From an uncultured Oscillospiraceae bacterium (GTDB lineage Bacteria; Bacillota; Clostridia; Oscillospirales; Oscillospiraceae), in contig CANRMY010000009.1 of the NCBI GenBank assembly GCA_947631845.1, positions 1-54,666 on the forward strand: a stretch of 54,666 nucleotides of DNA. Direction: 5' to 3'. This document shows, piece after piece, positions 19,323 through 50,158 of this stretch. Below the pieces are notes generated by a model. It saw only the letters and a program-made list of their open reading frames with translations, made no database searches and was not told the DNA's origin. Made by a program: the position numbers and the translations under genes. How positions within the stretch are numbered: the first letter of the stretch is position 1; each line of letters begins with the position of its first letter.

Positions 19323-19515
19323 GTCTAAAAAGCCCTGACGGGCGTTTTAGACAAGGGGAACGTGCGGGTGCTTTTCACTGAATTTTGCGAAATTCAGTGA
19401 AAAGCACCCTGCTGTCGCCCTGCGCGCACCCCGAAGGGGTACACTTGGGCGGCAAAAGGAATTTTTTCCGACGCGCATGTCGCCGGAAAAAATATCAAAT
19501 TTGAGTTTTTTGACA
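19323..19515 (+). ncRNA. structured four-hairpin element, copy 1
   Basis: Four consecutive hairpins are visible. H1 19323-19352 has a TGAC loop. The linker AAGGGGAACGTGCGGG follows. H2 is 19367-19408. The linker CCTGCTG follows. H3 is 19414-19453, with outer stem GTCGCCC/GGGCGGC and inner CCCC-GAA-GGGG. CAAAAGG precedes H4 19462-19492, with T6/A6 stem ends and loop around GCATG. It ends TTTTTTGACA. Two more copies share linkers and loops but have different, still paired stems. It lies between the HicB-like gene and the 19647 gene; a separate hairpin follows at 19521-19544. RNA versus DNA role is not decided. Confidence 0.65.
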
Positions 19516-19580
19516 AGCTGCGGCGCGGTCAATAGACCGCGCCGTTCTTTATGTTCCCATATAGAGCAGCCATCTGTTTA

Positions 19581-19609
19581 TTGACATCCGCCCTCGGCGG
19601 GGGTATCAT
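19581..19609 (+). promoter_or_regulatory. promoter of the 432-residue membrane protein gene
   Basis: Consensus TTGACA (19581-19586), 17-bp spacer, TATCAT (19604-19609), 37 bp before the start at 19647. Confidence 0.7.
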
Positions 19610-19646
19610 TAGGGGTAGAAATTTACGTGAATACGGGGGCTTTGTG

Positions 19647-20945
19647 ATGCAAGAGGAATATTTGGAGGAGCTGGAGAGCATGCGGGAGGGCTTGGCGAGA
19701 GCCCGGTTCGGCAGCTTCCTCATAATCCCCTTTCGGATGCCAAAGGCGGAATCGGACCACTGGCGGCTTTCGGAGCTGGGAGAATTTTCCCCCATCGAGA
19801 CCTCGGACATCTCCGAGGCCATCAAGCGAAGTCTGCGGCGGGGCGTCATGGAGCGGTGGACCATATCGGACGTGACGCTTTTAGACCGCTTCTTTCCCCA
19901 TGCCCAGGGGAAGGTGTCGCTGGCGGTGGGCTGCGGGGGTACCGATCTGCCCTTCCGGCTGGGGCCCTCCTATATCTATACCTTTATGACCGGTGTGGTG
20001 TTTTTCTGCCTGGGGATCGAATATGAGGACATCCGGGTGCTGGAGGCCGTCACAAACCTGGGCTTTTCCGAGAACCGCGCCACCTATTGCTGGGCCGACG
20101 GCGCGGGGGTCCATCCCTTCTCCCTGGCAGACAAGCTGACGGAGCTCATGGCTTTGTGCGGCGCGGAACCCTTTTTCCCGGACTCCGATCTCTTTCTGGA
20201 GAGCTTCATCTTTGATCTTGCCGTGGTACCGGAGCGGTTTCGGTATCTGAAAAGCCTCAAGGCGCTGACCTTCAACCTTCACCAGCTGCTCCCCCTGGGC
20301 GTGTCCATGACAGACGAGTCGGAGGAGGACGTCTGTTGGGCCTACTCCGTGAAGGACCAGGAGTCCGGCACCTACCGCTGGGGCTGCTGCGTCACCAGCC
20401 AGACCGTCAACTATGTATTCGCAAACCCCGCGCTGGACCTGGAGGCGGAGTTCCTCTCCCAGGCCGAGGATGGGCTCCCCCTTGTGCTTTTGGCGCTCTG
20501 TCAGAAATACAGCTGTCTCTATTTTACAGAGCTCCTGGCAAGCGCCGACAAGCGGGATCTTCGGGGGCTCCGGACCCTGAACCGCCGGATGCTGGAGTTC
20601 CGGGCCTATGGCACCGTCCACCCCGCCCACATCTCACGCTGGTACAATGTGCGGCAGATCTACAGCTATCTTATGAAGATCAATGGCGTTGAAGAGGCTG
20701 TCGGTGACATCCGGGACAAGCTGGGGATCCTGGAGGAACACCGAAAGGAGCGGGAATCCGGCGTCTCCGAGGCCGTGATGGGGCTCATCACCATCTTCGG
20801 GATCGTCTCCATCCTGGCCTCCCTCCTGACCATCGCACAGATCCTCTCCGGCGGCAGTGCCACTTACTGGATTCTGACCGTCATCGCCACCCTCGTCATC
20901 GCGTTAGTGGCCGCCATCGCCGTGGTCTGGAGAAAGAGGCAGTAG
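19647..20945 (+). CDS. hypothetical protein with two C-terminal membrane helices
   Basis: A 432-residue protein with a large soluble N-terminal part, then a charged helical linker (VGDIRDKLGILEEHRKERESG) and two closely spaced membrane helices at about 374-398 and 404-427 ending WRKRQ. The layout of a cytoplasmic domain, long helix and two terminal helices recalls CorA-type channels, but I see no GMN-like signature between the helices. The ATG at 19647 follows GGGGGCTTTGTG and is preferred over the frame extension upstream because the promoter lies in between. Function unknown. Confidence 0.7.
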   Translation: MQEEYLEELESMREGLARARFGSFLIIPFRMPKAESDHWRLSELGEFSPIETSDISEAIKRSLRRGVMERWTISDVTLLDRFFPHAQGKVSLAVGCGGTDLPFRLGPSYIYTFMTGVVFFCLGIEYEDIRVLEAVTNLGFSENRATYCWADGAGVHPFSLADKLTELMALCGAEPFFPDSDLFLESFIFDLAVVPERFRYLKSLKALTFNLHQLLPLGVSMTDESEEDVCWAYSVKDQESGTYRWGCCVTSQTVNYVFANPALDLEAEFLSQAEDGLPLVLLALCQKYSCLYFTELLASADKRDLRGLRTLNRRMLEFRAYGTVHPAHISRWYNVRQIYSYLMKINGVEEAVGDIRDKLGILEEHRKERESGVSEAVMGLITIFGIVSILASLLTIAQILSGGSATYWILTVIATLVIALVAAIAVVWRKRQ

Positions 20946-20994
20946 CCTTCGATTCCTTTTGTTTCACGCAAGCGCGCTTGCTGAACAGCAAAAA

Positions 20995-21030
20995 GGCTTT
21001 CGGATTTTACAGGATCCGAAAGCCTTTTTT
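20995..21030. terminator. bidirectional terminator before purF
   Basis: GGCTTTCGGAT (20995-21005) and ATCCGAAAGCC (21014-21024) flanked by A-run and T-run. It serves the convergent membrane protein gene and the purine operon. Confidence 0.88.
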
Positions 21031-21075
21031 GTGCGTTTTCCCATGTGAGATGCCCGTCAGGGCTTTTCGGGCTTT

Positions 21076-22506
21076 TCACGCGTTTTCGGGTTTTTCGAAC
21101 ATATCCCGCTTTGTCTCCTCCGGGAGCCGTGTCTTGTACTCCCCGGTGAAGCAGGCGGTGCAGAAGCCCCGGTTTTCCAGCCCCGGCAGGGCGGTCAGGT
21201 GTTCAATGCCCAGGTATCCCAGGCTGTCCGCGCCGATGAGCTGGCAGATCTCCGGGACGGTGTATTTGCAGGCGATGAGGTTCTCCCGGGAGTCGATATC
21301 CACCCCGTAATAGCAGGGGTTCAAAAACGGCGGCGCGGTGACGCGCACATGGACCTGGGTGGCCCCGGCCTCCCGCAAAATCGCCACGGTGCGGGCGATG
21401 GTGGTGGAGCGGACGATGGAGTCGTCCACCAGCACCACGCGCTTGCCCTCCACCGTCTCCCGGACGGCGTTGAGCTTGATGCGCACCCCCTGTTCCCGGG
21501 ACTTCTGGCCGGGGCTGATGAAGGTGCGGCCAATGTACTTGTTCTTGATCAGGCCGATATCGTAGGGGATACCGCTCTCCTGGGAGTAGCCGATGGCCCC
21601 GTCGGTGCCGGAGTCGGGGACACCGATGACGATGTCCGCCTCCACCGGGTAGTCCCGGGCCAGGAATCTCCCGGCCCGCAGACGGGCGTGGTGGATGGAC
21701 GCGCCGTAGATGCGGGAGTCGGGCCGGGAGAAGTAGATATACTCAAAGATGCACATGGCCTCCGGGGCCTTGCCGCAGTTGTCCCGGATGGAGTGTACAC
21801 CGGTGCCGTCAAAGACCACCACCTCGCCGGGCTCGATGTCTCGGATGTACTCGGCGGAGACGGAGCTCAAAGCGCAGGTCTCGGAGGCGATGATGTAGTC
21901 CCCGTGGCCGTTGCGGCCGTAGCACAGGGGCCGGAAGCCGTTCTTGTCCCGGACGGCGATGAGCTTGTCCTCCAGCATCAAAATCAGCGAATACGCCCCC
22001 TTGAGCCGGTTCATAGCCCGCAAAACCGCGTCCTCGGGGGTGTACGTCTCCAGCCGCTCCTGGGTCAGGACGTAGGAGATGATCTCCGTGTCCGAGGTGG
22101 TGTGGAAGATGGCCCCCCGGCTCTCCAGCTCGTGGCGGAGCTGGGCGGCGTTGGTCAGGTTCCCGTTGTGGACGGTGGCCAGCGCCCCGGTGAAGTGGCT
22201 CACCACGATGGGCTGGGCGTTCTCGCGCCCCGAATTGCCCGTGGTGCCGTAGCGCACATGGCCGATGGCCATGCTCCCCTCCCCCAGCTCATTGAGCCGC
22301 GCCGGGGTGAAGACCTCGCTGACCAGCCCCAGATCCTTCACCGTGTTGAACTGGCCCCGGTCGCAGACGGTGATCCCGCAGCTCTCCTGCCCCCGGTGCT
22401 GGAGGGCGTAAAGGCCGTAATATACCGTATTTCCCACATGAAAAGGATTTGCGGCGTATATCCCAAATACGCCGCACTCCTCATGGATATGGTCAAAAAT
22501 ATCCAT
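21076..22506 (-). CDS. purF: amidophosphoribosyltransferase
   Basis: A 476-residue enzyme for the first committed step of purine synthesis: PRPP plus glutamine to phosphoribosylamine. The N-terminal glutaminase begins with an 10-residue propeptide and Cys11 (HEECGVFGIYA). RYGTTG and VHNGNLTNA are glutaminase motifs. The C-terminal PRPP site reads VVLVDDSIVRSTT. A Cys-rich end (GFCTACFTGEY) fits the Bacillus-type Fe-S enzyme. It is the last gene of the purB-purA-kinase-purC-purF run. Confidence 0.97.
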   Translation of the reverse strand: MDIFDHIHEECGVFGIYAANPFHVGNTVYYGLYALQHRGQESCGITVCDRGQFNTVKDLGLVSEVFTPARLNELGEGSMAIGHVRYGTTGNSGRENAQPIVVSHFTGALATVHNGNLTNAAQLRHELESRGAIFHTTSDTEIISYVLTQERLETYTPEDAVLRAMNRLKGAYSLILMLEDKLIAVRDKNGFRPLCYGRNGHGDYIIASETCALSSVSAEYIRDIEPGEVVVFDGTGVHSIRDNCGKAPEAMCIFEYIYFSRPDSRIYGASIHHARLRAGRFLARDYPVEADIVIGVPDSGTDGAIGYSQESGIPYDIGLIKNKYIGRTFISPGQKSREQGVRIKLNAVRETVEGKRVVLVDDSIVRSTTIARTVAILREAGATQVHVRVTAPPFLNPCYYGVDIDSRENLIACKYTVPEICQLIGADSLGYLGIEHLTALPGLENRGFCTACFTGEYKTRLPEETKRDMFEKPENA

Positions 22507-22570
22507 AAACTATGATCCCTTCTGCCCCATTGCAAAAATTATCAAGTTGTGCGGAGCAAATAAAGATGTT

Positions 22571-23284
22571 TTACTCGGCTAAACCAAGCCTCTTCATCAT
22601 TTCATGGTACGCGTTTTCCACGTTGCCCAGATCCCGGCGGAAGCGGTCCTTGTCCAGCTTCTCGTTTGTTTTCACGTCCCAGAAGCGGCAGGTGTCGGGG
22701 CTGATCTCGTCGGCCAGGACGATCTCACCGTTCGCGGTCTTGCCAAACTCCAGCTTGAAGTCCACCAGGGTCACGCCGCAGGAGAGCATCTCGGCCTTGA
22801 GGAAGTCGTTGACGGCGAAGGCGTACTTCTTGATAAGCTCGATCTCCTCCCAGGTGGCCAGCTTCAACGCCACGGCATGGTAGGCGTTGAGGAGGGGGTC
22901 GTGGAGGTCGTCGTTTTTATAGCTGAATTCGATGGTGGGCGCGTCAAAGACGATCCCCTCGGGCACGCCGTACTTCTTGGAGAAGGACCCGGCGGACACG
23001 TTGCGGATGATGACCTCCAGGGGCACGATGCTGACCTTCTTCACCAGGGTGTCCCGGTCGGAGAGCTCCTCCACCAGGTGGGTGGGTACGCCGGCGGCCT
23101 CCAGCTTCTTCATGAGGAAGTTAGTCATCCGGTTGTTGATGGAGCCCTTGCCCGTGATGGTGCCCTTTTTCAGGCCGTCAAAGGCGGTGGCGTCGTCCTT
23201 GTAGCTGACGATGACAAGGTTCGCATCGTCGGTGGCGAAGACCTTCTTGGCCTTGCCCTCATAGAGCTGTTCGCGCTTTTCCAT
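22571..23284 (-). CDS. purC: SAICAR synthetase
   Basis: A 237-residue phosphoribosylaminoimidazole-succinocarboxamide synthase, normal length. The N-terminal YEGKAKKVF, the central LVEELSDRD and PLEVIIRNVSAGSF, and the LVDFKLEFG...DEISPDTCR stretch are the family hallmarks. It ligates aspartate to CAIR using ATP. It follows the P-loop kinase gene by 2 bp and precedes purF by 64 bp, so it is in the same operon. Confidence 0.97.
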   Translation of the reverse strand: MEKREQLYEGKAKKVFATDDANLVIVSYKDDATAFDGLKKGTITGKGSINNRMTNFLMKKLEAAGVPTHLVEELSDRDTLVKKVSIVPLEVIIRNVSAGSFSKKYGVPEGIVFDAPTIEFSYKNDDLHDPLLNAYHAVALKLATWEEIELIKKYAFAVNDFLKAEMLSCGVTLVDFKLEFGKTANGEIVLADEISPDTCRFWDVKTNEKLDKDRFRRDLGNVENAYHEMMKRLGLAE

Positions 23285-23286
23285 GT

Positions 23287-23979
23287 TTATAAAACCTCCT
23301 GGGTTTGATTTGTCAGTTTAAAATGCTCCGCCAGCGCCAAAAGCATTTCCTCTCTTGTATCCCGCTCAAAATCCCGGCGGGTATAGGTCCAAAAGCCCGT
23401 GTGTTCCCAGTCCGTATCCAGGGGCGGGCGATAGGTGAGCCAGGATCTGAAGTTCTCCATGGCCGCCTCCGGGTCGGGGCAGAGATTGATCTGCTCCAGC
23501 ATGAATTTCTTGTCCGGGTCGTCCCGGTCAAAAAACCTCCCGGCGGTGATGTCCGGCGGGTCGGTGAGGAGGATCGCCACGTGGTCGTAGTCGGAGATTT
23601 CCCGAAGGATGTCCGGCGGGATGTTGGTGTCCGCCACGATCTTCTTCCCCGACGCGGAGAGCCTGACAAGCTCCAGGATCTCGATTTCCGCGCACTCCCG
23701 GGCTGTCGCCCGCGTCCAACGCCAGTGTTCCTCAGCCGTCTGGCTCAGCCACTCCCGCCAGCCGGACATGGTGTCAAAATAGGAGAGCGCCGGCTGCTTC
23801 CATCGGGAGAGCCTGTCCCGTGGAAAGACATCGCTATAGTTCTCCCCGCAGCCGATCATGTCAAAGCGCTGGGAGAGCATCCTCACCATGGTGGACTTCC
23901 CGGCATAGCTGTGGCCGTTGATGAAGTAGACGTTTTGAAGATAGTATTTTATGATGTTGTCACTGATGCCGATCTTCAT
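23287..23979 (-). CDS. P-loop kinase-like protein embedded in the purine operon
   Basis: A 230-residue protein with a Walker A motif GHSYAGKST at residues 22-30, preceded by a beta strand YFINGHSY. A possible switch or Walker B strand KKIVADTNIP and a lid-like Arg/Asp-rich part (GRFFDRDDPDKKF) follow. It resembles small nucleoside/nucleotide or shikimate-type kinases. It lies between purA (6 bp upstream) and purC (2 bp downstream), so it is co-expressed with purine synthesis. Substrate unknown. Confidence 0.65.
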   Translation of the reverse strand: MKIGISDNIIKYYLQNVYFINGHSYAGKSTMVRMLSQRFDMIGCGENYSDVFPRDRLSRWKQPALSYFDTMSGWREWLSQTAEEHWRWTRATARECAEIEILELVRLSASGKKIVADTNIPPDILREISDYDHVAILLTDPPDITAGRFFDRDDPDKKFMLEQINLCPDPEAAMENFRSWLTYRPPLDTDWEHTGFWTYTRRDFERDTREEMLLALAEHFKLTNQTQEVL

Positions 23980-23985
23980 CGCGTC

Positions 23986-25257
23986 TTACAGCTCAAAATA
24001 CTCGTCTCTCCCGGCGCCGACGGAGACGTACTTGATGTGGGTGTCGGTGGACTCGGCGATAAAGTTGACGTAGTCCCGGGCCTCGCGGGGAAGCTCCTCG
24101 AAGGAGCGGCAGGCGGAGATATCGCATTTCCAGCCGGGGAGATACTCGACGACCGGCTTCGCGGCCTCCAGCTCGTCCCCGGTGGGGAAATAGTTCACGA
24201 TCTTCCCGTTCACCTCGTAGTGGGTGACCACGGGGATCCTGTCCATGTAGGAGAGCACGTCCAGCTTCGTCAGAGCGATCTCCGTCGCGCCCTGCACCAG
24301 GCACCCGTACCGGGAGGCCACCACGTCGAAGCCGCCCACCCTCCGGGGACGGCCCGTGGCCGCGCCGTACTCGCCGCCGGCCTCGCGGAGGGCCTCGGCC
24401 TCCGCGCCGAACATCTCACAGGTGAAGGGGCCGGCGCCCACGCAGCTGGAGTAGGCCTTCATGATGCCCACGACGCTGTCCAAACGCTTTGCCGGGATGC
24501 CCGCGCCGATGGGCGCGTAGGCGGCGATGGTGCTGGAGCTGGAGGTATACGGATAAATGCCGAAATCGATATCCCGGAGAGCGCCAAGCTGAGCCTCAAA
24601 CATCACGGACTTGCCGGAAGCGATGGCGTCGGTGAGATAGCTTGTGGTATCCTTCACGTAGTCGCGGAGGGGGAAGCCGTAGGTCTCAAGCCATTTATAC
24701 ATCTCCTCCGGGTCGATGGGCTCGTGCTGATAGCCGCCGGCCACGGTCAGGTTCTTCCACTCACACAGATCGGCCACATGGGCTCTGAGGCTTTCAGGGT
24801 GGAAAAGGTCGCCCATGCGGACGGTCTTTTTCATGTATTTGTCGGCGTAGACCGGGGCGATGCCGCGGCGGGTGGAGCCGTAGGCCTTGCCGCCCAGACG
24901 CTCCTCCTCGATGATATCCATCATCTTGTGGTAGGGCATACAGACGGTGGCCCGGTCGGAGATGACCAGATGCTCCGGCGTGATCTCAATGCCCTTTTCC
25001 CGCAGCCGCGCCATCTCGTTTGTCAGGTGCTCCAGGTCGATGACCATGCCGGGGCCCATGACGTTCACCGTCTCGTCCCGCAAAATCCCGGAGGGCAGCA
25101 GGTTCAGGATAAACTTGCCCTTCTCGTTGATGACGGTGTGGCCGGCGTTGTTGCCGCCCTGATAGCGGATGACGATGTCATAACGGGAGCTCAAGAGGTC
25201 CACCATGCGGCCCTTGCCCTCGTCTCCCCAGTTGATACCAACAACAGCAGTTAACAT
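23986..25257 (-). CDS. purA: adenylosuccinate synthetase
   Basis: A 423-residue enzyme converting IMP, GTP and aspartate to adenylosuccinate. The N-terminal GTP-binding NWGDEGKGRMVD and the GGNNAGHT motif are present, as is the TGRPRRVGGFDVV segment. Length matches the family. It lies directly after purB and before the P-loop kinase on the minus strand. Confidence 0.97.
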   Translation of the reverse strand: MLTAVVGINWGDEGKGRMVDLLSSRYDIVIRYQGGNNAGHTVINEKGKFILNLLPSGILRDETVNVMGPGMVIDLEHLTNEMARLREKGIEITPEHLVISDRATVCMPYHKMMDIIEEERLGGKAYGSTRRGIAPVYADKYMKKTVRMGDLFHPESLRAHVADLCEWKNLTVAGGYQHEPIDPEEMYKWLETYGFPLRDYVKDTTSYLTDAIASGKSVMFEAQLGALRDIDFGIYPYTSSSSTIAAYAPIGAGIPAKRLDSVVGIMKAYSSCVGAGPFTCEMFGAEAEALREAGGEYGAATGRPRRVGGFDVVASRYGCLVQGATEIALTKLDVLSYMDRIPVVTHYEVNGKIVNYFPTGDELEAAKPVVEYLPGWKCDISACRSFEELPREARDYVNFIAESTDTHIKYVSVGAGRDEYFEL

Positions 25258-25269
25258 AACAACTTCTCC

Positions 25270-26700
25270 TTATACCCGCACCTGGGCGTCCAGTCCTAAA
25301 AGCGCGGCGTTTTCTTCCAGTACGGGGGCCGCCACGGACGCGAGGAACTCCTCCGTCTGCTCTGGGGCGCGGCCCACAAATTTGCGGATGTTCAAAACGT
25401 CCTTCAGGCTCTCCTCCGTCAGGCCGAACCGCTCATCCTTCAATAAGAGCTCCAGCAGATTGTTGTCCCCGCCCTCCAGCTTCACCCTGGCGGCGGCGAT
25501 CTGGGAATACTGGCGGATGGCCTCGTGAAGCTCCTGCCTGTCCCCGCCCCGGGCCACGGCGTCCATCAGGATATTCTCGCTGGCCATGAAGGGAAGCTCC
25601 TCCATAAGGTGCTTTTCCATGACCTTGGGATAAATTTTCCCGTTCCGGATCACGTTGATGATCAGCGTCAAAATGGCGTCCACGCCCAAAAACGCCTCCG
25701 GGATGGAGATGCGCCGGTTGGCGGAGTCGTCCAGCGTCCGTTCCAGCCACTGGGCGGCGGCGGTGTCGCCGGCGTTTTTGGCGTCATTGAGGATGTACCG
25801 GGCTAAACTGACCACCCGCTCGCACCGCATGGGGTTGCGCTTGTAGGCCATGGCGGAGGAGCCGATCTGGTTCGTCTCAAAGGGCTCGTCAAACTCCTTC
25901 ATGTGGGCCAGGAGCCGTATATCCGTGGCCATCTTGGCACAGCTTACGGCGATATCCGCCAGCACGTTCAGCACATAGGCGTCCACCTTGCGGGAGTAGG
26001 TCTGGCCGGAGACGGGCATACAGGCCGTAAAGCCCATCTTCTCCGCGATCTTCGCCTCCAGAGCCTTCACCTTCTCGTGATCGCCCCGGAAAAGCTCCAA
26101 AAAGCTGGCCCCGGTGCCGGTGGTGCCCTTGCACCCCAAAAGCTTCAGGTGGGACAGCTCAAAATCCAGCCGCTCTAAGTCCATGCACAGATCCTGGGTC
26201 CACAGCGTAGCCCGCTTGCCCACGGTGGTGGGCTGGGCGGCCTGGAAGTGGGTGTAGGCCAGGGTGGGCACGTCCTTGTGGGCCTTGGCAAAGTCGGAAA
26301 GGGCCGCGATGGCGTTCACCAACAGCTTCTTTATTTGCAAAAGGCCGTCGCGCATCTGGATGATGTCGGTGTTGTCCCCCACATAGCAGCTGGTGGCCCC
26401 CAGGTGGATGATGGGCTTGGCCTTGGGGCAGGCGTCCCCGAAGGTGTGGACGTGGGCCATCACGTCGTGGCGGAGCTTGTGCTCGTACCGGTCGGCCAGG
26501 TCGTAGTCAATGTCGGTGATATGCTGCCGCATCTCGTCGATCTGCTCCTGGGTGACGGGCAGGCCCAGCTCCTTCTCGCTCTCCGCCAGGGCGATCCACA
26601 GCCGACGCCAGGTGGAAAATTTAAAGTCTGGGGAGAAGATGTACTGCATCTCGCGGGAGGCGTAGCGGCTGCACAGGGGGTTTTCATAGCGGTCTTTCAT
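25270..26700 (-). CDS. purB: adenylosuccinate lyase
   Basis: A 476-residue fumarase/aspartase-superfamily lyase acting twice in purine synthesis. The signature loop SSAMAYKRNPM is clear, and the THFQAAQPTTVGKRA and GTTGTGASF segments fit this group. It is the first gene of the purine run, starting after CCGAAAGGACCGATACGCCT. Its 5' region carries a structured element copy and a GC-rich hairpin but no recognisable purine riboswitch. Confidence 0.96.
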   Translation of the reverse strand: MKDRYENPLCSRYASREMQYIFSPDFKFSTWRRLWIALAESEKELGLPVTQEQIDEMRQHITDIDYDLADRYEHKLRHDVMAHVHTFGDACPKAKPIIHLGATSCYVGDNTDIIQMRDGLLQIKKLLVNAIAALSDFAKAHKDVPTLAYTHFQAAQPTTVGKRATLWTQDLCMDLERLDFELSHLKLLGCKGTTGTGASFLELFRGDHEKVKALEAKIAEKMGFTACMPVSGQTYSRKVDAYVLNVLADIAVSCAKMATDIRLLAHMKEFDEPFETNQIGSSAMAYKRNPMRCERVVSLARYILNDAKNAGDTAAAQWLERTLDDSANRRISIPEAFLGVDAILTLIINVIRNGKIYPKVMEKHLMEELPFMASENILMDAVARGGDRQELHEAIRQYSQIAAARVKLEGGDNNLLELLLKDERFGLTEESLKDVLNIRKFVGRAPEQTEEFLASVAAPVLEENAALLGLDAQVRV

Positions 26701-26722
26701 AGGCGTATCGGTCCTTTCGGAG

Positions 26723-26764
26723 GGTGTCTGCGCGGGCGGCCAAGAGAGGCCGCCCCTACGGCAT
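26723..26764. repeat. GC-rich palindrome of the GGGCGGCC family
   Basis: GGGCGGCC...GGCCGCCC followed by CCTACGGC, related to the hairpins in the 12323-13100 block. It abuts the tail of the structured element copy at 26771 and may have truncated it. Confidence 0.6.
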
Positions 26765-26770
26765 CTGAAT

Positions 26771-26952
26771 TCAATATTTTTTCCGGCGGCATGTACGTCG
26801 GAAAAAATCCCTTTTGTTTTGCGGAGTGTGCGGCCCCGCGGGCCGTGCGCGGAGCAAAACAGCAGGAAGATTCGGCGTGAATTCCGCAGAATTCACGGCG
26901 GGTCTTCCGCACGTTCCCCTTGGCATTTGAAGCCCGTCAGGGCTTCAAAGCC
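26771..26952 (-). ncRNA. structured four-hairpin element, copy 2 (minus strand)
   Basis: Read on the minus strand it starts 4 bp after the glmS stop. H1 (26932-26952) has a GAAGCCC-TGAC-GGGCTTC tip, then AAGGGGAACGTGCGG. H2 is about 26867-26896. CCTGCTG follows. H3 (26816-26860) has outer stem GTTTTGC/GCAAAAC. CAAAAGGGA precedes H4 (26777-26807), with T6/A6 ends and loop TACATG. Stems differ from the other copies but remain paired; the final TTTTTTGACA tail is missing. It lies between glmS and purB, in the direction of both. Confidence 0.65.
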
Positions 26953-26955
26953 AGG

Positions 26956-28776
26956 TTACTCTACAGTAACGGATTTCGCCAAATTCTTGGGCTTGTCGAT
27001 ATCGCAGCCCCGCTCCTTGGCCACGTAGTAGGCGAAGAGCTGCAGGGGGACGATCTGGGCGATGGGGTTGAAGACCGGCTCCGTGCGGGGGACAAAGATC
27101 ACGTCGTCGGCCTTGGAGAGGATCTTCCGGTCTCCCTCCAGCGCCACGGCCAGCACCTCCGCGCCCCGGGCCTTGACCTCCTCGATGTTGGACATGGTCT
27201 TGTCGAACAGGGGCTCGTAGCAGGCCAGGGTCACCACCAGGCTCCCCTGCTCCACAAGGGCGATGGTGCCGTGCTTCAGCTCCCCGGCGGCGTAGGCCTC
27301 GGCGAAGATGTAGCTGATCTCCTTCAGCTTCAACGCGCCCTCCATGCAGACGGCGTAGTCCAGATTCCGGCCGATAAAGTAGATGTCGTTATACTTGCAA
27401 AGCTTCTTGGCCAGCTTATGGATGTTGCGGTTTAAGTCGATGGCCCGCTGGATCTGGCCCGGCATCTCGTGCAGGGCCTCCACCAGTCTGTCATACCGGG
27501 CCTTCTCCATAAGGCCTAGCCGGTCTGAAAGCCAGATAGCCAGCATGTCAAGGACCGCCACCTGGGTGGTGTAGCCCTTGGTGGTGGCCACGGCGATCTC
27601 CGGCCCGGCCCAGGTGTAGATCACGTGATCGGCCAGCTTGGCGATGGTGCTCCCCACCACGTTGACGATAGCCAGCGTCCTGGCGCCCCGGGCCTTGCAC
27701 TCCCGCATGGCGGCGATGGTGTCCGCCGTCTCGCCGGACTGGGAGATCACGATCAGCAGGGTATGTTCGTCGATGATGGGGTTGCGATAGCGAAGCTCGC
27801 TGGCCAGCTCCACGGCCACGGGGATCCGGCAAAGCTCCTCTAAGATATACCGGCCCACCTGTCCGGCGTACCCGGCGGAGCCGCAGGCGGTGATGATGAT
27901 GCGGTTGATGCTGTGAAGCTCCCCGTCCGTCAGGTCGAAGTTCTCAAACTCGATCCTGCCGTCCTTGATCCGGGGTTCCACGGTGGCCTTGAAGCAGGCG
28001 GGCTGCTCCATGATCTCCTTGAGCATGAAATGCTCGTAACCGCCCTTCTCGGCGGCCTCCACATCCCAGGCCACCTTGGAAACGGGCTTGTCAATGGCGC
28101 GGCCCCGGACATCGTAGACGGTGATGGACTCCGGCGTGAGCTCGGCAAATTCCCCGTCGTCCAGGTAGATGACGTTCTTGGTGTGGGGCACCAGGGCCGC
28201 CACGTCGGAGGCGAAGTAGTTCTCCCCCACGCCCAGGCCCAAAATCAGCGGGCTCTGCTCCCGGACGGCGAAAAGCCGGCCGTCGGCGCAGACGATCCCC
28301 AGGGAGTAGGAGCCCTCCAGTCTGGCCGCCGTCTTCATGACGGCCCTTTTGGCATCGCCGTCATAGTAGTATTCCAAAAGGTGCGCCACCACCTCTGTGT
28401 CGGTGTCGGAGGCGAAGGTATACCCCTTTTTCGTCAGCTCCTGCCGCAGCAGGGCGTAATTTTCGATGATGCCGTTGTGTACCACGGCAAACCGCCCGTC
28501 GGAGGACGTGTGGGGGTGGGCGTTCACGTCGTTGGGTGCGCCGTGGGTGGCCCAGCGGGTGTGGCCCACGCCGATCTGCCCCCGGATATCCGCCCCGTCG
28601 TGGGTCATCTCGGAGAGGTTTTTCACATATCCCTTGACCTTCGCCACGTTGATGGCCGCGCCGTCGGACACGGCCACGCCGGCGGAGTCATATCCTCTGT
28701 ATTCAAGCCGCCGAAGGCCGTCGATGAGGACAGGCGCGGCCTGACGCGAACCGGTAAAACCAACGATTCCGCACAT
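26956..28776 (-). CDS. glmS: glucosamine-fructose-6-phosphate aminotransferase
   Basis: A 606-residue enzyme making glucosamine-6-phosphate from fructose-6-phosphate and glutamine. The catalytic Cys2 follows the initiator (MCGIVGFTG). HTRWATHG and VHNGIIENY mark the glutaminase half, two SIS domains form the isomerase half (ACGSAGYAG, VISQSGETADT), and the C-terminus ends AKSVTVE. The gene lies 71 bp after pyrG. A glmS ribozyme would need more room than this and none is seen. Confidence 0.97.
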   Translation of the reverse strand: MCGIVGFTGSRQAAPVLIDGLRRLEYRGYDSAGVAVSDGAAINVAKVKGYVKNLSEMTHDGADIRGQIGVGHTRWATHGAPNDVNAHPHTSSDGRFAVVHNGIIENYALLRQELTKKGYTFASDTDTEVVAHLLEYYYDGDAKRAVMKTAARLEGSYSLGIVCADGRLFAVREQSPLILGLGVGENYFASDVAALVPHTKNVIYLDDGEFAELTPESITVYDVRGRAIDKPVSKVAWDVEAAEKGGYEHFMLKEIMEQPACFKATVEPRIKDGRIEFENFDLTDGELHSINRIIITACGSAGYAGQVGRYILEELCRIPVAVELASELRYRNPIIDEHTLLIVISQSGETADTIAAMRECKARGARTLAIVNVVGSTIAKLADHVIYTWAGPEIAVATTKGYTTQVAVLDMLAIWLSDRLGLMEKARYDRLVEALHEMPGQIQRAIDLNRNIHKLAKKLCKYNDIYFIGRNLDYAVCMEGALKLKEISYIFAEAYAAGELKHGTIALVEQGSLVVTLACYEPLFDKTMSNIEEVKARGAEVLAVALEGDRKILSKADDVIFVPRTEPVFNPIAQIVPLQLFAYYVAKERGCDIDKPKNLAKSVTVE

Positions 28777-37184: not shown

Positions 37185-37196
37185 GGTTTCGCCTCC

Positions 37197-41837: not shown

Positions 41838-41896
41838 GATTCACTTCCCCCCTGAAAGGAAAGCGCCGCAGACGGAGGCGGCGCCTTTACTTGGAC

Positions 41897-42469
41897 TTAC
41901 TCCGCGGCCACCACGTCAATGAGATAGCCGCTGTAGATATCCGCGTCGAATTGGGCGTAGGTGGCGGCGTCCGCGTCGGCGTCAAGGCCGATGCCGTACC
42001 CGGCGAACTGGAGGATGGTGCCCTCCACCATCTCCTGGTCGTAGGAGAGAATGATCATAGAGGGGTCGTCCCCGTAAAGGGTGAAGTTCATATCGGAGCC
42101 GGCCATCTCCACAAAGGCGTCGTACATGGCCTTGGCGTTCTCGGCGGTGTCGCAGATGTAGATGTCGTCCTGCCGGACAGCCTTGCTGTCCTTGGCGTAG
42201 GTCAGGTGGTACTCCTTCTGGATGCCGTACTCCAAAAACTCGCTGAGGAGGGCGTTCTCGTCGTCGGGATTCACGTCCACCTGGCACAGATACAGGGTGT
42301 CGTAGTCCACGTCGGGAAGCTTATAGGTCCTCTGGCCGTCCAGCAGGCTGATGGCGTCGGTCTTATCACTGCCCTTGTCGGAGCCGCCGCCGGAGAACAG
42401 CCCGCACCCGGTCAGCGCCACTGTCAGCGCCAGCACCATGGCGACGCAGACTTTCATGCCTTTTTTCAT
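41897..42469 (-). CDS. lipoprotein, DUF4358-like
   Basis: A 190-residue lipoprotein: basic start MKKGMKVCVAMVLAL, lipobox VALTGC near residue 21, then a Gly/Ser/Lys/Asp linker. A compact acidic domain follows, with paired segments (DDIYICDTAENAKAMYDAFVEM, then SMIILSYDQEMVEGTILQF) of the kind seen in DUF4358 proteins. The ATG at 42469 follows AGAGGGAATAAC. It is the first gene of the second redox/ABC module, 59 bp before the ABC pair, and could be a substrate-binding or accessory lipoprotein. Confidence 0.65.
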   Translation of the reverse strand: MKKGMKVCVAMVLALTVALTGCGLFSGGGSDKGSDKTDAISLLDGQRTYKLPDVDYDTLYLCQVDVNPDDENALLSEFLEYGIQKEYHLTYAKDSKAVRQDDIYICDTAENAKAMYDAFVEMAGSDMNFTLYGDDPSMIILSYDQEMVEGTILQFAGYGIGLDADADAATYAQFDADIYSGYLIDVVAAE

Positions 42470-42660
42470 TGTTATTCCCTCTTTTCTGAAATATTTGACC
42501 ACTTTGAAAAAGTAAGTCATTTTCTTTTCTATATTACCAGTCATGACAAAGAATGTCAATAAAAACCGTGAGATTTACACGATTTTCCGCTAATTTATGC
42601 CGTTTTTGCGGAAAGCGGCCCGCAACACCGGCGGCGCGGCCGCGCACCCTGTACGGAAAA

Positions 42661-42704
42661 GGGGCTGTGAAAAGCCGGGCGATCCCCGTTTTTTTCACAG
42701 CCCC
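42661..42704 (-). repeat. GGGGCTGTGA palindrome, copy 3
   Basis: A 44-bp inverted repeat with the same outer arms as copies at 4497 and 6894 but a different inner stem (CGGGcGATCCCCG). It lies 22 bp past the end of the ABC gene at 42727 and on the minus strand is followed by TTTTCC, so it probably acts as that operon's terminator. Confidence 0.75.
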
Positions 42705-42726
42705 TGTATTCGGTTTTTTGAAAGGC

Positions 42727-44622: not shown

Positions 44623-46396
44623 GATGCTCGCCTCCCTCCTCCTCAAGCTTCTGGAGATCCACCATGTGCTTGTACGCCGGGCAGGAGGCGATCAGCTCCT
44701 CGTGGCTGCCCACGGCCGCCAGCTCCCCGTCCTCCAGATAGAGGATCTTGTCCATCCGTTCGATGGTGGAGATGCGGTGGGCGATGAGGATGGTGGTCTT
44801 CCCCTCCCGGGTCTTTTTCAGATTTTCCAAAATGGTCTTCTCCGTACTGGTATCCACGGCGGAGACGGAGTCGTCCAAAATCAGGATGGGCGCGTCCTTC
44901 AAAAGGGCCCGGGCGATGGAGATCCGCTGCTTCTGTCCGCCGGAGACGGTGACGCCGCGCTCGCCCAGCACCGTCTCATACCCCTCCGAAAACTCCCGGA
45001 TGTTGTCGTCCACGTCGGAGAGGACGGCGGCCTCGACCACCTTCTCCATATCGGGCTTGCCGTTGGTAAAGGCGATGTTCCGGGCGATGGTGTCGGAGAA
45101 GAGGAAGTTGTCCTGGGGCACATAGGCGCAGGCGGCCCGCACATCGTGGATCTTCACGCCGTTCACGTCGTGCCCGTCCACAAAAACGGTGCTGTCGGGC
45201 ACGTTGTAGGTGCGCAGGATAAGGTCCACCAGCGTGGTCTTGCCCGCTCCCGTGCGGCCCACCACGCCCACGCTCTCCCCCGCGCGGATCCGGAAGGAGA
45301 CATCCTTCAAAACGTCATACTCCCCGCCGGGGTAACGGAAGGTCAGGTGCTTGAATTCGATATCGCCCCGGACATCCCGAAGCTCCGCCACGCCCTCCCG
45401 GTCGATCACGTCCTGCTTGGCGTTCAACAGCTCGCTGACGCGCTTCAGGGACGCCTTGCCGCGGCTCGTCATATCGATGAGCTCGGAGACGGCCATGATG
45501 GGCCAGACGATGGCGTTGAAATAGCCTATGTACTCCACCAGCTGTCCGGCGTTGAACACCTTCTCATGGACCAGCCAGCCGCCGTAGCCCAGCACCACGC
45601 AGATGACCGACTCCACAAAGAGCGTCACCAGAATGTGCAGCAGCACCGAGGCGCGGGTAAAGTCCACATTGGCCTTCTCATTCTCCTGATTGAGCTTTTT
45701 GAAGGCCCACAGCTCCTTGGCCTCCTTGACGAAGGCCTTGATGACGGCGATGCCGGAGAAGGACTCCTGGGAGAAGTCGGAGAGCTTGGAAAACGCCGCC
45801 TGGCGGATGTCCCACTTCTTCTCCATATAACGGCCCACCACGGTGCTGATGCCGAAGAGGAACACCATGGGGATCAGGGAGAAGAGGGTCAGCGTCCTGT
45901 CCATATTGAACATCTTGAAAATGGACAGGATGCCCAGCATCAGCGCGTCGGCCAGCATCAGAAGCCCGTTGCCGTAGCAGTCCTGGATGGTGTCCAGGTC
46001 GTTGGTGAAGAGGCTCATCAGATCCCCCACCTTGTGGACCTGATAGTACTGCTGGGACAGATCCTTGCAGTGGTCAAACATGCTGTTGCGGATCTCCGCC
46101 TCCACCCGCACGGCGGAGCCGAAGAAGCAGATGCGCCACAAAAACCGCCCGAAGACCATGCTGATGACCACCACCAGCATGGGCAGGCAGATCTCGTCCA
46201 GCAAAAAGTCCATGTCGAAGGGGCGCATGACGCCGTCCAGCATCACCTGGCCGTCGTTCATGCCGTTGACCACCATCTGATAGAGTCTGGGCACCACCAG
46301 CTGCATGTAGTCCACCACGCCCAGCGCCAGCAGGCCCAGCAGCAGGAGCGGCCCGTATTTGATGTAATATTTGTTGATGTGCTTTCCGAATATCAT
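44615..46396 (-). CDS. ABC exporter half-transporter, first of the BmrCD-like pair
   Basis: A 593-residue fused subunit. Six membrane helices precede the ATPase with Walker A GRTGAGKTT, signature VSGGQKQRISIARAL, and Walker B ILILDDSVSAVDT. There Asp replaces the usual catalytic Glu after the Walker B aspartate, typical of the non-catalytic site in heterodimers such as BmrCD or TM287/288. The gene is coupled by overlap to its partner. There is no adjacent regulator. Confidence 0.93.
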   Translation of the reverse strand: MIFGKHINKYYIKYGPLLLLGLLALGVVDYMQLVVPRLYQMVVNGMNDGQVMLDGVMRPFDMDFLLDEICLPMLVVVISMVFGRFLWRICFFGSAVRVEAEIRNSMFDHCKDLSQQYYQVHKVGDLMSLFTNDLDTIQDCYGNGLLMLADALMLGILSIFKMFNMDRTLTLFSLIPMVFLFGISTVVGRYMEKKWDIRQAAFSKLSDFSQESFSGIAVIKAFVKEAKELWAFKKLNQENEKANVDFTRASVLLHILVTLFVESVICVVLGYGGWLVHEKVFNAGQLVEYIGYFNAIVWPIMAVSELIDMTSRGKASLKRVSELLNAKQDVIDREGVAELRDVRGDIEFKHLTFRYPGGEYDVLKDVSFRIRAGESVGVVGRTGAGKTTLVDLILRTYNVPDSTVFVDGHDVNGVKIHDVRAACAYVPQDNFLFSDTIARNIAFTNGKPDMEKVVEAAVLSDVDDNIREFSEGYETVLGERGVTVSGGQKQRISIARALLKDAPILILDDSVSAVDTSTEKTILENLKKTREGKTTILIAHRISTIERMDKILYLEDGELAAVGSHEELIASCPAYKHMVDLQKLEEEGGEHHE

Positions 46397-46591
46397 TTCC
46401 TGTCCCTCAACGTAAATGTCCTTCTCTTGCTCTTACAGAAAAAGTCCCCCACAGGAATTCCGCAACCCCCAAATTCCGCAGGGATTTGTATTATAGCATA
46501 ATCAAATGCGCTTTTCCACACTTTTTTCAAAAAAATATTTGCGTTTCTTGCTGAAAAACCGTATAACTACGGTATAATTTTCAGGCAAAAG

Positions 46592-46621
46592 GCCGCCTCC
46601 CGGTTTTCGCCGGGAGGCGGC
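46592..46621 (-). terminator. terminator after the serpin gene
   Basis: GCCGCCTCCCGG and its exact complement with a TTTTCG loop, 22 bp after the serpin stop; on the minus strand TTTTGCC follows. Confidence 0.8.
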
Positions 46622-46642
46622 ACAGTTCTTTATCCTTTTGTC

Positions 46643-48103
46643 TTAAGGTTTGTTGACGATCCCGGCGAAAACGGGGACGCCGTTGTTCGTGACCGTAAAG
46701 AGGAAGGGCCGGTCAAAGGTGATGTCCACCTCGTCGTCGGGAGGTTCGGCGGAGCCGCTCATCGCCGCCACCGTGTAGGCCGCGCCCACACAGCCCTCCT
46801 CGTCGATGCTCACCCGGGCCGCGTGGAGGATCTGAGAGAGGAAGACGTTGTTCTCCGGCGTGATGCTCTCCCCCATGACGGGTGAAAAATCGGCCTTGAC
46901 CGGGTCGAACACCTCCGTGACCCCCAGGGCCTTCAGCTTCGGCCCGATCTCGCCGTTCTCCGTCACGTCGAATTTGGGCAGGGACAGGTTGACCTTCAGA
47001 TATTTGCTCCCCACCGCGTCCCTGTCCACCGTGTCCGTGAGATAGCTCACGGCGGCGGGGTCGGCCAAGATCTCCTCTATGCTGACACCCTCATCCGGGA
47101 GAAGCAGCCGCATGGTGCCGCCGTACTCAAAGTCTTGCCTCACGGCGGAGAATTTGTCCGACCAGGAGTACCACGCGTCGGAGCTGTTGTGCATGAATTC
47201 ACACGCCGTATCCCCGGCGGGGGCGTGGAACACACCGGTATCCGTTCTTTTGGGGTTGAAGCCGGCATCCCACTTGTCCTTGAAAAGCACCGTCGTGGCC
47301 AGGGCCAGGGCGGTATCCGCGTCCAGATCCACCCCGTTCGCCGCGTCCTCTAAAAGCCCGCCGGTGTGGGCGTTCAGCCATTTTTGCAAAAAGCCGTTAT
47401 AGTCGCCGCCGCCCATCTCCCCCCGGTAGGAGGATGCGTAGTAGCTCTCCGCCAAACGCTCTAAGGGCGCTGTCACATAGTCTACGTCGTCCCGGAGCCA
47501 CACCGAGGCGGCCAGACCCAGGGTGTAGCTGCCGTCGTCGTTGTAGAGGGCGTTCCAAACCCGGTTGGCCTGGGCCCGCAGAGCCTCCACGCTGTCCGCG
47601 CCCAGGACGTCCAAAATCTCCTGCCGGCTCGTCCCCTCGGTGATCTCCGACAGCATCCCCAGCGCCAGGTAGACGCTCACCGGCGAGCAGACGGTGTTGC
47701 CGTCCCCGGCGCCCGTCAAAAGCGCCGGCACCAGCCTGCGCTCCCAGACCGCCAGGGCGTCCCACTCCTCCTGGGTCAGCTGCCGCGCCAAGAGAGCCTC
47801 CAGCCAGGCGTCAAACTGCTCCTCGTCCATTTCCAGGGTGAGGTCGTCTATCTCCGGGTACCGGGGACGGTCCGGGTACCGGGCCTCCGCCAACGTCGCC
47901 GCCTCCCTGCCGGAGGGGGTGGGGCCGCCGGGATCCGCACCCCGCCGCCCCGCCAGCGCCGCCACGCTCCCGGCAAGGACCGCCACCGCCAGCACAGCCG
48001 CCAGGGCGGCGGGCCAGCGTTTTCTCTTCTTTGTCTTCTTCGCGTTGTCTATCAGGTCGTCACGGATATTTGTGACGCCGTCGTACAGATCTTCAGGCTT
48101 CAT
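46643..48103 (-). CDS. membrane-anchored serpin, probable anti-sigma partner
   Basis: A 486-residue protein. A cytoplasmic N-terminus of about 35 residues (EDLYDGVTNIRDDLIDNAKK) precedes one membrane helix (about 40-60, PAALAAVLAVAVLAGSVAALA). A linker and a full serpin domain (about 120-486) follow: NTVCSPVSVYLALGML, TTVLFKDKW, the hinge DEEGCVGAAYTVAAMSG before the reactive loop, and FDRPFLFTV plus PVFAGIVNKP at the end. The small residues of the hinge suggest an inhibitory serpin. The ATG at 48103 follows GAAGGAGGAATTTACC and lies inside the sigma gene, so translation is coupled. Topology and coupling suggest an anti-sigma role for the N-terminus. Confidence 0.9.
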   Translation of the reverse strand: MKPEDLYDGVTNIRDDLIDNAKKTKKRKRWPAALAAVLAVAVLAGSVAALAGRRGADPGGPTPSGREAATLAEARYPDRPRYPEIDDLTLEMDEEQFDAWLEALLARQLTQEEWDALAVWERRLVPALLTGAGDGNTVCSPVSVYLALGMLSEITEGTSRQEILDVLGADSVEALRAQANRVWNALYNDDGSYTLGLAASVWLRDDVDYVTAPLERLAESYYASSYRGEMGGGDYNGFLQKWLNAHTGGLLEDAANGVDLDADTALALATTVLFKDKWDAGFNPKRTDTGVFHAPAGDTACEFMHNSSDAWYSWSDKFSAVRQDFEYGGTMRLLLPDEGVSIEEILADPAAVSYLTDTVDRDAVGSKYLKVNLSLPKFDVTENGEIGPKLKALGVTEVFDPVKADFSPVMGESITPENNVFLSQILHAARVSIDEEGCVGAAYTVAAMSGSAEPPDDEVDITFDRPFLFTVTNNGVPVFAGIVNKP

Positions 48104-48656
48104 TGGTAAATTCCTCCTTCTCCAGGATCTCCCGCAGGGAAAGGCGCAGACGCCGGAGCCGCTGGGCGAGGGTGTTGGCCCGCTCCCCCGCGTCCCGGGC
48201 CAGCTCCTCCAGGCTCTCCCCGTAGAAATACCGGCGGACAAACAGCGCCCGGTCCCGCTCCGGGAGGGTATCCAGCCAGCGGGAGATGACGCGTCCCAGC
48301 TCCCGGCCCTCCATCTCCCGCTCCACGTCCGCCCCCGAGGGGATGGCCTCCGCAAGCTCGTCAAGCTGGGTCTCCAGGGCCGCGTACCGCTTTTCCGCCC
48401 TGTTTTTCCGGAACCGGGAGACGGCCAGGTTCCGCGTCAGCCGCCCTAAAAACGCCTTCAGGGATTCCGGGCTCTCCGGCGGGATGGCGTTCCAGGCGGC
48501 CAGATACGTGTCCGTGACGCACTCCTCCGCGTCCCGCCGGTCGTCCAAAAGGCGGGAGGCCAGGGCGGAGACAAACCCGCCGTATTTGGCTCTCGTCTCC
48601 CCGATGGCGCTCTCGTCCCGGTCAAAATAGAGCTTCACGATCCGGCTGTCCTCCAC
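48093..48656 (-). CDS. ECF-type RNA polymerase sigma factor upstream of the serpin
   Basis: A 187-residue sigma factor. Region 2 spans about 10-75 (LYFDRDESAIGETRAKYGGFV, then DAEECVTDTYLAAWNAI); region 4 is at about 125-180 (LPERDRALFVRRYFYGESLEELARDAGERANTLAQRLRRLR). A GTG start at 48656 follows GAGAGGGGGTGGG. The last 11 bp overlap the serpin gene. It likely controls its own operon and genes that respond to the serpin's signal. Confidence 0.9.
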   Translation of the reverse strand: MEDSRIVKLYFDRDESAIGETRAKYGGFVSALASRLLDDRRDAEECVTDTYLAAWNAIPPESPESLKAFLGRLTRNLAVSRFRKNRAEKRYAALETQLDELAEAIPSGADVEREMEGRELGRVISRWLDTLPERDRALFVRRYFYGESLEELARDAGERANTLAQRLRRLRLSLREILEKEEFTNEA

Positions 48657-48752
48657 GCGCCCACCCCCTCTCGTTTGTTTGACGGCCCGTCACCCTTCAA
48701 GTCGCAAATCGGGGACGGATATGACAGATTTTTATGATTTTTTCGGTCTCCC

Positions 48753-49451
48753 CTAAAAATCCCCCTCGGCCTCCAGGAGCGTCCTCAGCTTATCCAGCGC
48801 CTTTTTCTCGATGCGGGAGATATAGGAGCGGGAGATGCCCAGCTTCTCCGCCGTCTGCTTCTGGGTCAGGCGCGGCCCGCCCAGAAGACCGTAGCGCAGC
48901 GTCACCACCTGCCGTTCCCGGGGCTCCAGGCCGTTCTCCACAAAATACCGCAGCCGCCCGTAGACCTCCTGGGAGCTGAGCCGCTCAAAGACGTCGTCCT
49001 CGGCGCAGATGACGTCCATCAGGGAGAGGTTGCCCCCGTCCCCGTCCGCGTCGATGGAGTCGGACAGGGAAAGATCCCCGGCGCTCTTGCGCTGGCTTCT
49101 GAAAAACATCAGGATCTCGTTCTCGATGCACCGGCTGGCGTAGGTGGCCAGCCTTACGCCCTTGTCCGGCTTGTAGGTGGAGATGCCCTTGATGAGGCCG
49201 ATGGTGCCGATGGAGATGAGGTCGTCCTGGTCCCTGGTCCTGGTGTAATATTTCTTCACGATGTGCGCCACCAGGCGCAGATTGTGCTCGATAAGCGTGT
49301 TCCGGGCCTCCTGGTCCCCGGCGGCGGCCCGCTCCAGACACTCCCGCTCCCGCGCCTCCGAGAGGGCCTTGGGGAAGGAGCCGGCGGGGTTGGTCACCCG
49401 CAGAAGCAGGAAGGGATAGCTGAGAAGTGAGGCGAAAGCAATAGACAGCAA
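48753..49451 (-). CDS. sigK: RNA polymerase sporulation sigma factor K
   Basis: A 232-residue sigma factor of late mother-cell development. The hydrophobic N-terminus (IAFASLLSYPFLLLRV) is a pro-sequence followed by GSFPKALS. Region 2 reads [20 protein letters not shown] and GLIKGIST; region 4 reads LTQKQTAEKLGISRSYISRIEKKALDKL. The gene is uninterrupted here, with no skin-type element. TTG start at 49451 follows GGTGAAATAAC. BofA, the inhibitor of its activation, is encoded at 32027-32353. Confidence 0.93.
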   Translation of the reverse strand: MLSIAFASLLSYPFLLLRVTNPAGSFPKALSEARERECLERAAAGDQEARNTLIEHNLRLVAHIVKKYYTRTRDQDDLISIGTIGLIKGISTYKPDKGVRLATYASRCIENEILMFFRSQRKSAGDLSLSDSIDADGDGGNLSLMDVICAEDDVFERLSSQEVYGRLRYFVENGLEPRERQVVTLRYGLLGGPRLTQKQTAEKLGISRSYISRIEKKALDKLRTLLEAEGDF

Positions 49452-49931
49452 GTTATTTCACCACCGATCGATAATTCCTGCCTACTATATTCCGCCCGGA
49501 TTTGTCCCTATTCCCCCTTTTTCCGGCCCGCTGCCCCCCGTCCGGGGGGGCAAATACTTTTCCACGCTGTAGTATTATTCGAATATCCCTGTAAATCACC
49601 ACGCCGCGTCTTTTTCGTCTCTTATGAGGCAAATTTAACTTTAAAGCACGAAAGAGGCCGGCTTTTTCCCTGAAATGAGGAAATTTTTTTAATTTTTCGT
49701 CAGTTTTTTTAAGGAAAACTCTTGAAATATTTTAATAAATATGTTAATCTATCATTGGTTGAAGGGGTTTTTTCATCACGCAATGCAAAGCAATCCCTTT
49801 TTCCCGATTTATTTGCCCGCGCCAAGGCACTTTTGTGCCGTCACTCTTATGGAGGGGAGCCCCATGCCAAGAGCGGCGGGACGGGTATCTTTGATGCCCG
49901 TCCCGGGGGCGTCTCTCCGCATCTCACCCCT
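49452..49931. other. intergenic region upstream of sigK without a gene
   Basis: About 480 bp, AT-rich from 49560 to 49800, with no convincing gene on either strand. I could not assign a sigma-E promoter for sigK with confidence. Confidence 0.5.
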
Positions 49932-49960
49932 CTCCCCCGGCTTTGCCGGGGGAGTTTTTT
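49932..49960 (+). terminator. hairpin with T-run before structured element copy 3
   Basis: CTCCCCCGG-CTTTG-CCGGGGGAG followed by TTTTTT. It looks like an intrinsic terminator on the plus strand, although no plus-strand gene precedes it. Confidence 0.65.
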
Positions 49961-49962
49961 AT

Positions 49963-50158
49963 GTCGGGCAAAGGCCTGACGGCCTTTGCCCGACAAGGGG
50001 AACGTGCGGGTAAATGACGCAAAATTAGAATTTTGTGCCATTTATCCTGCTGTCTTGCTGCGCGACCAGTTTGAGAACTGGTCACTTGCAAGACAAAAGG
50101 GATTTTTTGCAAGGCACATGTCCTTGCAAAAAATATTCAACTTGTTTTTTGACAGACT
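49963..50158 (+). ncRNA. structured four-hairpin element, copy 3
   Basis: H1 (49963-49994) is a perfect GTCGGGCAAAGGCC stem with TGAC loop. AAGGGGAACGTGCGGG follows. H2 is 50011-50044 (TAAATG.../...CATTTA). CCTGCT follows. H3 (50052-50094) has outer stem GTCTTGC/GCAAGAC and inner ACCAGTT/AACTGGT. CAAAAGGGA precedes H4 (50103-50133), TTTTTTGCAAGG/CCTTGCAAAAAA with a loop ending ACATG. It ends TTTTTTGACAGACTG. It lies upstream of the PAP2 gene and is the best-paired of the copies. Confidence 0.7.

Follow-up and report, generated by a model that had tools for sequence, protein, structure and literature searches.

YPAL (RU-2) of Yersinia appears to be the closest published small element found to the one considered here, a repeated array of four hairpins (H1 to H4) with three copies on the 54,666-nt contig CANRMY010000009.1 of an uncultured Oscillospiraceae bacterium (GCA_947631845.1), the whole of which is referred to below as the window. 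In the available sections of its description, YPAL is an intergenic element of ~168 bp with internal inverted repeats and duplications of 3-26 bp, whose targets span or adjoin dyad symmetry and for which empty sites are known (PMC2229807). Compared by description, the present element resembles it in being small and intergenic, and in its internal inverted repeats, its variable duplications at or by dyad symmetry and its empty sites. YPAL differs in being enterobacterial, with no IS1182 partner named in those sections, and on our own reading of them it seems to form one hairpin system, compared with four hairpins and their linkers here (PMC2229807).

IS1272, an insertion sequence (IS) of the IS1182 family, is described in the available sections as targeting stem-loops, several of which are terminators, and as removing them with no duplication (PMC4923244; PMC5678879); duplication of the whole stem appears there only as the proposed pathway b of a model (PMC5678879). 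IS1272 and TnSha1 of Staphylococcus belong by name to the same transposase family as the likely partner of the present element and use stem-loop targets without a sequence consensus (PMC4923244; PMC5678879). As far as those sections go, however, these two delete the stem-loop or take its place without duplicating it, whereas the present element duplicates the whole stem-loop; they also encode a transposase, which the present element does not.

The BOX, RUP and SPRITE repeats of pneumococcus and CIR of Caulobacter are likewise small repeats with transcripts that fold into stem-loops, CIR consisting of two arms and a linker and SPRITE being terminator-like, but whole-hairpin duplication is not described for them or for other miniature elements in the sections compared (PMC10969869; PMC2229807). 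Long duplications of variable length (8-514 bp) are recorded for IS1549 and IS1634 in the part of the report available (PMC2266710). A 2024 review of prokaryotic miniature elements does not mention IS1182 in its main text, and no published description of the present element was found in literature searches judged mostly from bibliographic entries.

The element is interpreted here as a miniature inverted-repeat transposable element (MITE), that is, a non-autonomous mobile element, which a DDE transposase of the IS1182 family would move in trans onto hairpins; we put the probability of this reading at about 80%. That the element is mobile is strongly supported. MITEs are small, lack a transposase, have terminal repeats in common with an autonomous element, and show target duplication and empty sites. 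Judging from its sequence, two points appear special to the present element, namely insertion at the feet of hairpins with duplication of the whole hairpin, and a conserved array of palindromes.

A previous reading of the window from its sequence only had claimed one shared skeleton at three places, and this was recovered, with H1-H4 at 19322-19493 (+), 26953-26776 (-) and 49962-50134 (+); the loops, linkers and H3 stem sequences it quoted were all correct. Each copy has the order H1, linker AAGGGGAACGTGCGG, H2, CCTGCTG, two-part H3, CAAAAGG, and H4 with T6/A6 arms. The copies and the hairpins that abut them are as follows.

19316..19520, + strand: copy 1, whole element, ends approximate (from ~19316); covariance-model match of 197 bits
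H1 19322-19353, linker from 19354, H2 19366-19409, H3 19414-19453, H4 19461-19493, + strand: internal parts of copy 1
19506-19520, + strand: right terminal repeat of copy 1
19286..19315, strand not assigned: hairpin abutting copy 1 on the left
19521..19544, strand not assigned: hairpin abutting copy 1 on the right
26764..26955, - strand: copy 2, ends approximate; covariance-model match of 186 bits
H1 26953-26921, H2 26907-26866, H3 26860-26816, H4 26808-26776, - strand: internal parts of copy 2
49961..50159, + strand: copy 3, ends approximate; covariance-model match of 171 bits
H1 49962-49995, H2 50008-50047, H3 50052-50094, H4 50102-50134, + strand: internal parts of copy 3
50145-50159, + strand: right terminal repeat of copy 3
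49934..49960, + strand: terminator-like hairpin with a T-run, abutting copy 3 on the left

Duplicated hairpins and empty sites

The sequence-only reading had proposed a covariance-model search and a look for target-site duplications and for empty sites in sister strains, and these were carried out. A 16-base linker pattern with at most two mismatches matched 56 times in the 2.59-Mb genome, a few of these matches not being elements, against 6 times for the reversed control. The covariance model, built from 24 copies chosen for diversity, gave 113 matches in the same genome at E <= 0.01, of which 51 exceeded 100 bits; those at or below 100 bits include partial copies and antisense matches on H2.

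For duplication, 102 copies were reduced to 97 by dropping short or repeated flanks and to 73 by retaining those whose right end could be recognised. Of these 73 copies, 37 lie between direct repeats of 12-84 nt, compared with 0 of 144 in a mispaired-flank control. In 31 of the 37, the repeat consists of one hairpin (at least 6 bp) that spans at least 85% of it from foot to foot, indicating that the duplicated unit is usually the stem-loop itself, and 31 of 37 fold better than 99% of shuffles. The outcome known from IS1272, a deleted stem-loop with no duplication, is not that of those 31 copies, in which the whole stem-loop is duplicated. T-runs by the 37 repeats run along the element in 13 cases and opposite in seven, 17 being undecided, with no significant bias.

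Empty sites were seen for two loci. The flanks of locus L045 meet in five sister genomes (G001, G002, G018, G012 and G010), overlapping by 62-76 nt, which means that the target is present once there. The site orthologous to copy 2, the sole copy without duplication that was compared with an empty site, carries no element in G001, H1 and H4 alone in G002, and H3 and H4 in G018; across these genomes there are pair changes in H4, and in G018 the outer stem of H3 is replaced yet still paired. As in other MITEs, target duplication (37 of 73) is accompanied by empty sites (L045 and copy 2), and the element stays under a few hundred bp and has no transposase gene, for which its forms of ~90, 183 and ~285 nt leave no room.

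It might be argued that such copies are terminator arrays spread by recombination rather than by transposition, given that H1 resembles a terminator hairpin with an A-run and a T-run and that copies adjoin terminator-like hairpins. Fixed ends, duplications at both ends and empty sites speak against this, as does H4, in which the T-run is 5' and the A-run 3', the reverse of a terminator; we consider this explanation very improbable.

A probable IS1182-family partner

The right-end pattern TTTTTTGACARNCTG ends copies 1 and 3 (copy 2 has no such end) and has 80 occurrences in the genome, 59 of them exact, versus four for the control; the occurrences lie at element ends and at IS termini. TTTTTTGACARNCTG is the right terminal repeat common to the element and the IS, and the left ends are, by eye, more loosely alike (GAGACTGTCG versus CAGTCTGTCA). 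One IS terminus lies in the window itself.

1..75, + strand: terminus of an IS1182-family insertion sequence, the contig ending inside it; a hairpin follows directly at 76-93

The window is one of many contigs of this genome that end in the terminus of a repeated IS, and all 11 IS termini inspected by eye abut a hairpin. Relatives carry complete ISs of ~1.5 kb with terminal repeats like CAGTCTGTCAAAAAAC, and the three complete ISs inspected among them (L243, L245 and L247) all have a copy of one hairpin on either side. Against the IS1182 model NF033551 (cut-off 270), the transposases of L243 and L245 score 372 and 381 bits, that of L245 containing the domains PF13751, PF05598 and PF01609. An IS1182-type partner is likely. 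An IS1634-type system had been suspected for the long variable duplications but was rejected, since the transposase scores only 33.5 bits against the IS1634 model compared with 381 against IS1182; IS1549 and IS1634 accordingly differ in transposase family.

In the mechanism that we propose, an IS1182-family DDE transposase would recognise the terminal repeats of the element, as their common ends suggest, and join it at the feet of a stem-loop, often a terminator-like one. Repair would then copy the whole stem-loop to both sides, in keeping with the duplication of about half of the testable copies. Landing on the hairpins at gene ends, with one left on each side, may make insertion nearly harmless, which could explain why ~50 copies per genome are tolerated.

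Several observations weigh against this reading. The genome that contains the window has only a C-terminal transposase fragment at a contig end, which scores below the curated cut-off, and no match to PF01609. PF13751 was found in just 14 of 34 genomes of the genus, and nine genomes with at least 39 elements have no match to it; these missing matches count against a simple partnership of element and IS, although collapse of repeats in metagenome-assembled genomes (MAGs) may have caused them. Thirty-six of the 73 testable copies are without a clear duplication, and no clear direct repeat was found around any of copies 1-3 in the window, copy 1 lying exactly between two hairpins of differing sequence, for which reason no direct repeat is claimed. 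The 84-nt repeat of L045 is not a simple hairpin and holds an apparent gene start.

If the reading holds, these loci show in nature, together with controls and empty sites, an IS1182-type system duplicating whole stem-loops, an outcome which we had met in the literature only as a model pathway. With dozens of insertions, they would also be material for studying the way in which a DDE transposase locates a hairpin and cleaves at its feet.

Pairing of the internal hairpins

The four-hairpin pattern with its conserved linkers is far beyond chance. Among 98 distinct copies of the 183-nt class, standard pairs occupy 96.9% of 5065 pair cells (shuffled mean 83.4%). These copies were drawn from 100 chosen loci; long, truncated, duplicate and doubtful forms and the limit of 100 sources left out 32 of the 80 loci found with an H4 pattern and 14 of loci L001-L056. 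Compensatory change in the stems, on which the sequence-only reading had based its case for structure, was found on both sides of 39 of 52 pairs in this alignment, which was fitted to the structure, and in 31 of 52 pairs of an unfitted alignment of 24 copies. That reading had named a lack of significant covariation in an enlarged alignment as refuting it; covariation in the 98 copies amounted to 0.352, compared with 0.111 after shuffling and 0.035-0.088 when pairing partners were displaced by 1-3 columns. The earlier observation is confirmed as a whole; its interpretation is partly supported.

The sequence-only reading had allowed for either a structured non-coding RNA (ncRNA) or a structured miniature mobile element, with selection acting on RNA or on single-stranded DNA. 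RNA pairing under selection should tolerate G·U but not A·C. Of the 4968 stem cells counted in the 98 copies, one doubtful apical H4 pair being left out, 4764 are Watson-Crick; the remainder are G·U in 48 cells, A·C in 92 and other combinations in 64, or, as distinct pair-and-type cases, 28 G·U, 30 A·C and 35 other. On a tree over all 52 pairs, G·U was the outcome of 50 departures from Watson-Crick pairing, A·C of 67 and some other mismatch of 50. Acceptor stems of tRNAs from the same loci gave 116 Watson-Crick, eight G·U, no A·C and two other, although, with 18 of the 22 distinct tRNA genes counted, it is a small control and a further weakness of our case. The absence of a G·U preference, unlike in the tRNAs, means that the pairing is probably kept at the DNA level. 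Of the two earlier alternatives the mobile element stands, given the duplications, the empty sites and the IS1182-family ends, and the RNA is disfavoured by the wobble count; likewise, the compensatory change stands but its placement at the RNA level is not supported by that count.

Another reading nevertheless deserves attention, namely that a mobile element carries a functional RNA or that such an RNA was recruited from one. The RNA would be co-transcribed with the upstream gene, its hairpins stabilising or processing the upstream mRNA, so that sense copies were kept. Between tandem genes, 31 copies are sense and eight antisense to the genes (69 loci with enough flank, genes being the longest open reading frames (ORFs) within 400 nt rather than called genes). 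The excess lies with copies without a detected duplication, 24 with and three against, a class that includes copies whose right end went unrecognised, compared with seven with and five against for those with a duplication (p = 0.08); for longer ORFs only, the counts are 19 to 2 and 6 to 3, respectively. Such a bias is not predicted by the mobile-element reading, against which it counts, and leaves a transcript-level role possible. The linkers, the H3 loop and the H4 tip are also conserved even in cousins from other genera, and YPAL, likewise a published small element, is said in the available part of its description to affect upstream transcripts. Against an RNA, the mismatch profile is alike in copies with and without duplication, no class preferring G·U on the annotated strand, and the site of copy 2 lacks H2-H3 in one sister genome and the element in another. 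A match to a catalogued RNA motif, which the sequence-only reading had left open, did not materialise: the whole window gave no Rfam match at gathering score, and permissive scans, run on copy 3 and on five loci, turned up nothing that reached the cut-off of its family. We regard a functional RNA as improbable.

In most copies the H4 stem has an A opposite a C (A in 96 of 98; C in 83 of 98, T in 14 of 98), as it does in cousins. On the other strand the A·C cells and this conserved H4 pair would be G·U (or A-U), and an RNA from the opposite strand was therefore considered; cell counts favour it (92 versus 48) but distinct cases are even (28 versus 30), and it was not adopted.

The simplest reading of the stems is that they are kept as DNA palindromes, through a role of the folded DNA or through correction of one arm on the other. 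The internal inverted repeats would stay paired, with conserved linkers, either because single-stranded or cruciform hairpins serve some role, for instance in transposition, or through template switching between arms. The latter process, quasi-palindrome correction, restores perfect palindromes by template switching between their arms. It could account for pairing with no function at all, the linkers being conserved only by recent descent. The 247 occasions on the tree when one Watson-Crick pair changed directly into another, compared with 167 changes to any mismatch, and the mismatch types without G·U preference are consistent with this. H3, the H4 tip and nearby linkers are kept in cousins both within the genus and in other genera, although most stems differ, and recent descent does not explain such persistence beyond the genus. 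Functionless pairing is thus a tentative account, though a quite possible one.

It is rather unlikely, though worth stating, that the internal array is folded single-stranded or cruciform DNA read by the transposition machinery or a host factor, in which case the stems would be free in sequence but have to pair and the linkers and H4 tip would be read by sequence. If true, folded DNA would serve a DDE transposon system twice, as its target and within the element itself, and would have been maintained in several families of a single bacterial order. Whichever of these applies, an intergenic element present in many copies can covary strongly without being an RNA, and counting G·U against A·C offers a simple check for ncRNA candidates.

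Size classes, cousins and surroundings

The family comprises three size classes, of ~90 nt (H1 and H4 only), 183 nt and ~285 nt, the last with a larger H3. The long forms (L023, L031, L161, L138 and others) are longer by ~100 nt in H3, where they share an additional folded domain, and both strands of L161 fold far better than shuffles (z -9.4 and -11.9). Duplication was scored in five of 11 long forms; in L161, L152 and L130 it adjoins the end and involves a hairpin, in L179 it is 30 nt off and in L202 it is not adjacent. Among the forms with H1 and H4 only, none of eight has a hairpin duplication, the one scoring case being a terminal-repeat match, and the control of this set was not clean (3 of 24). 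The difference from 37 of 73 gives p = 0.007, though the two sets were searched by different methods, and it is consistent with H2-H3 being required for movement or with these copies simply being older. At L014 (1235-1559) a 183-nt form and an H1 and H4 form are in tandem around one shared hairpin. A search for solo H1 elements gave 22 rows at 11 places, most of them the H1 of known copies.

Across 60 genomes, with the best 44 candidates or fewer scored in each, matches were found in 32, namely 31 of the 34 genomes of the genus (own genome included) and one of another family. Order-wide, with at most the best 10 candidates scored per genome, 27 of 245 genomes matched at E <= 1e-4, from 15 of 126 genera, the scores outside the genus being weak (~30 to 71 bits). 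A 27-base H4 pattern recovered at least 105 stretches in named genomes, the 80 listed all coming from uncultured Oscillospiraceae MAGs of the 'Lapin' series. Viral contigs had no exact match to one 22-base H4 pattern, and copy 1 had no match among plasmids and phages.

Duplicated hairpins were found around three of 15 cousins within the genus and three of 14 in other genera (controls 0 of 45 and 0 of 42); the most clear-cut case is L100, some others lying 28-95 nt off the modelled core or not being hairpins. Related elements from a different family of the order (L102, L107, L111 and L252-L271, in G042) form a cousin group with hypervariable inverted repeats, set apart by conserved spacers, and an additional hairpin that precedes CTCTGCGAGGC; G042 gave 58 model matches and no match to PF13751.

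The surroundings of copy 2, with gene names inferred from Pfam domains, are listed below.

26956-28776, - strand: glmS-like gene
25270-26700, - strand: purB-like gene
26734..26759, - strand: GTAGGGGCGG-type hairpin downstream of copy 2, with a differing stem in sister genomes

The stem of this GTAGGGGCGG...CCGCCC hairpin varies among G000, G002 and G018 with pairing mostly kept. A GTAG-type repeat is no more frequent in the window than expected by chance (four matches versus 2.1). The window also encodes a bacterial serpin at 46643-48364 (-) (PF00079, E 6e-53).

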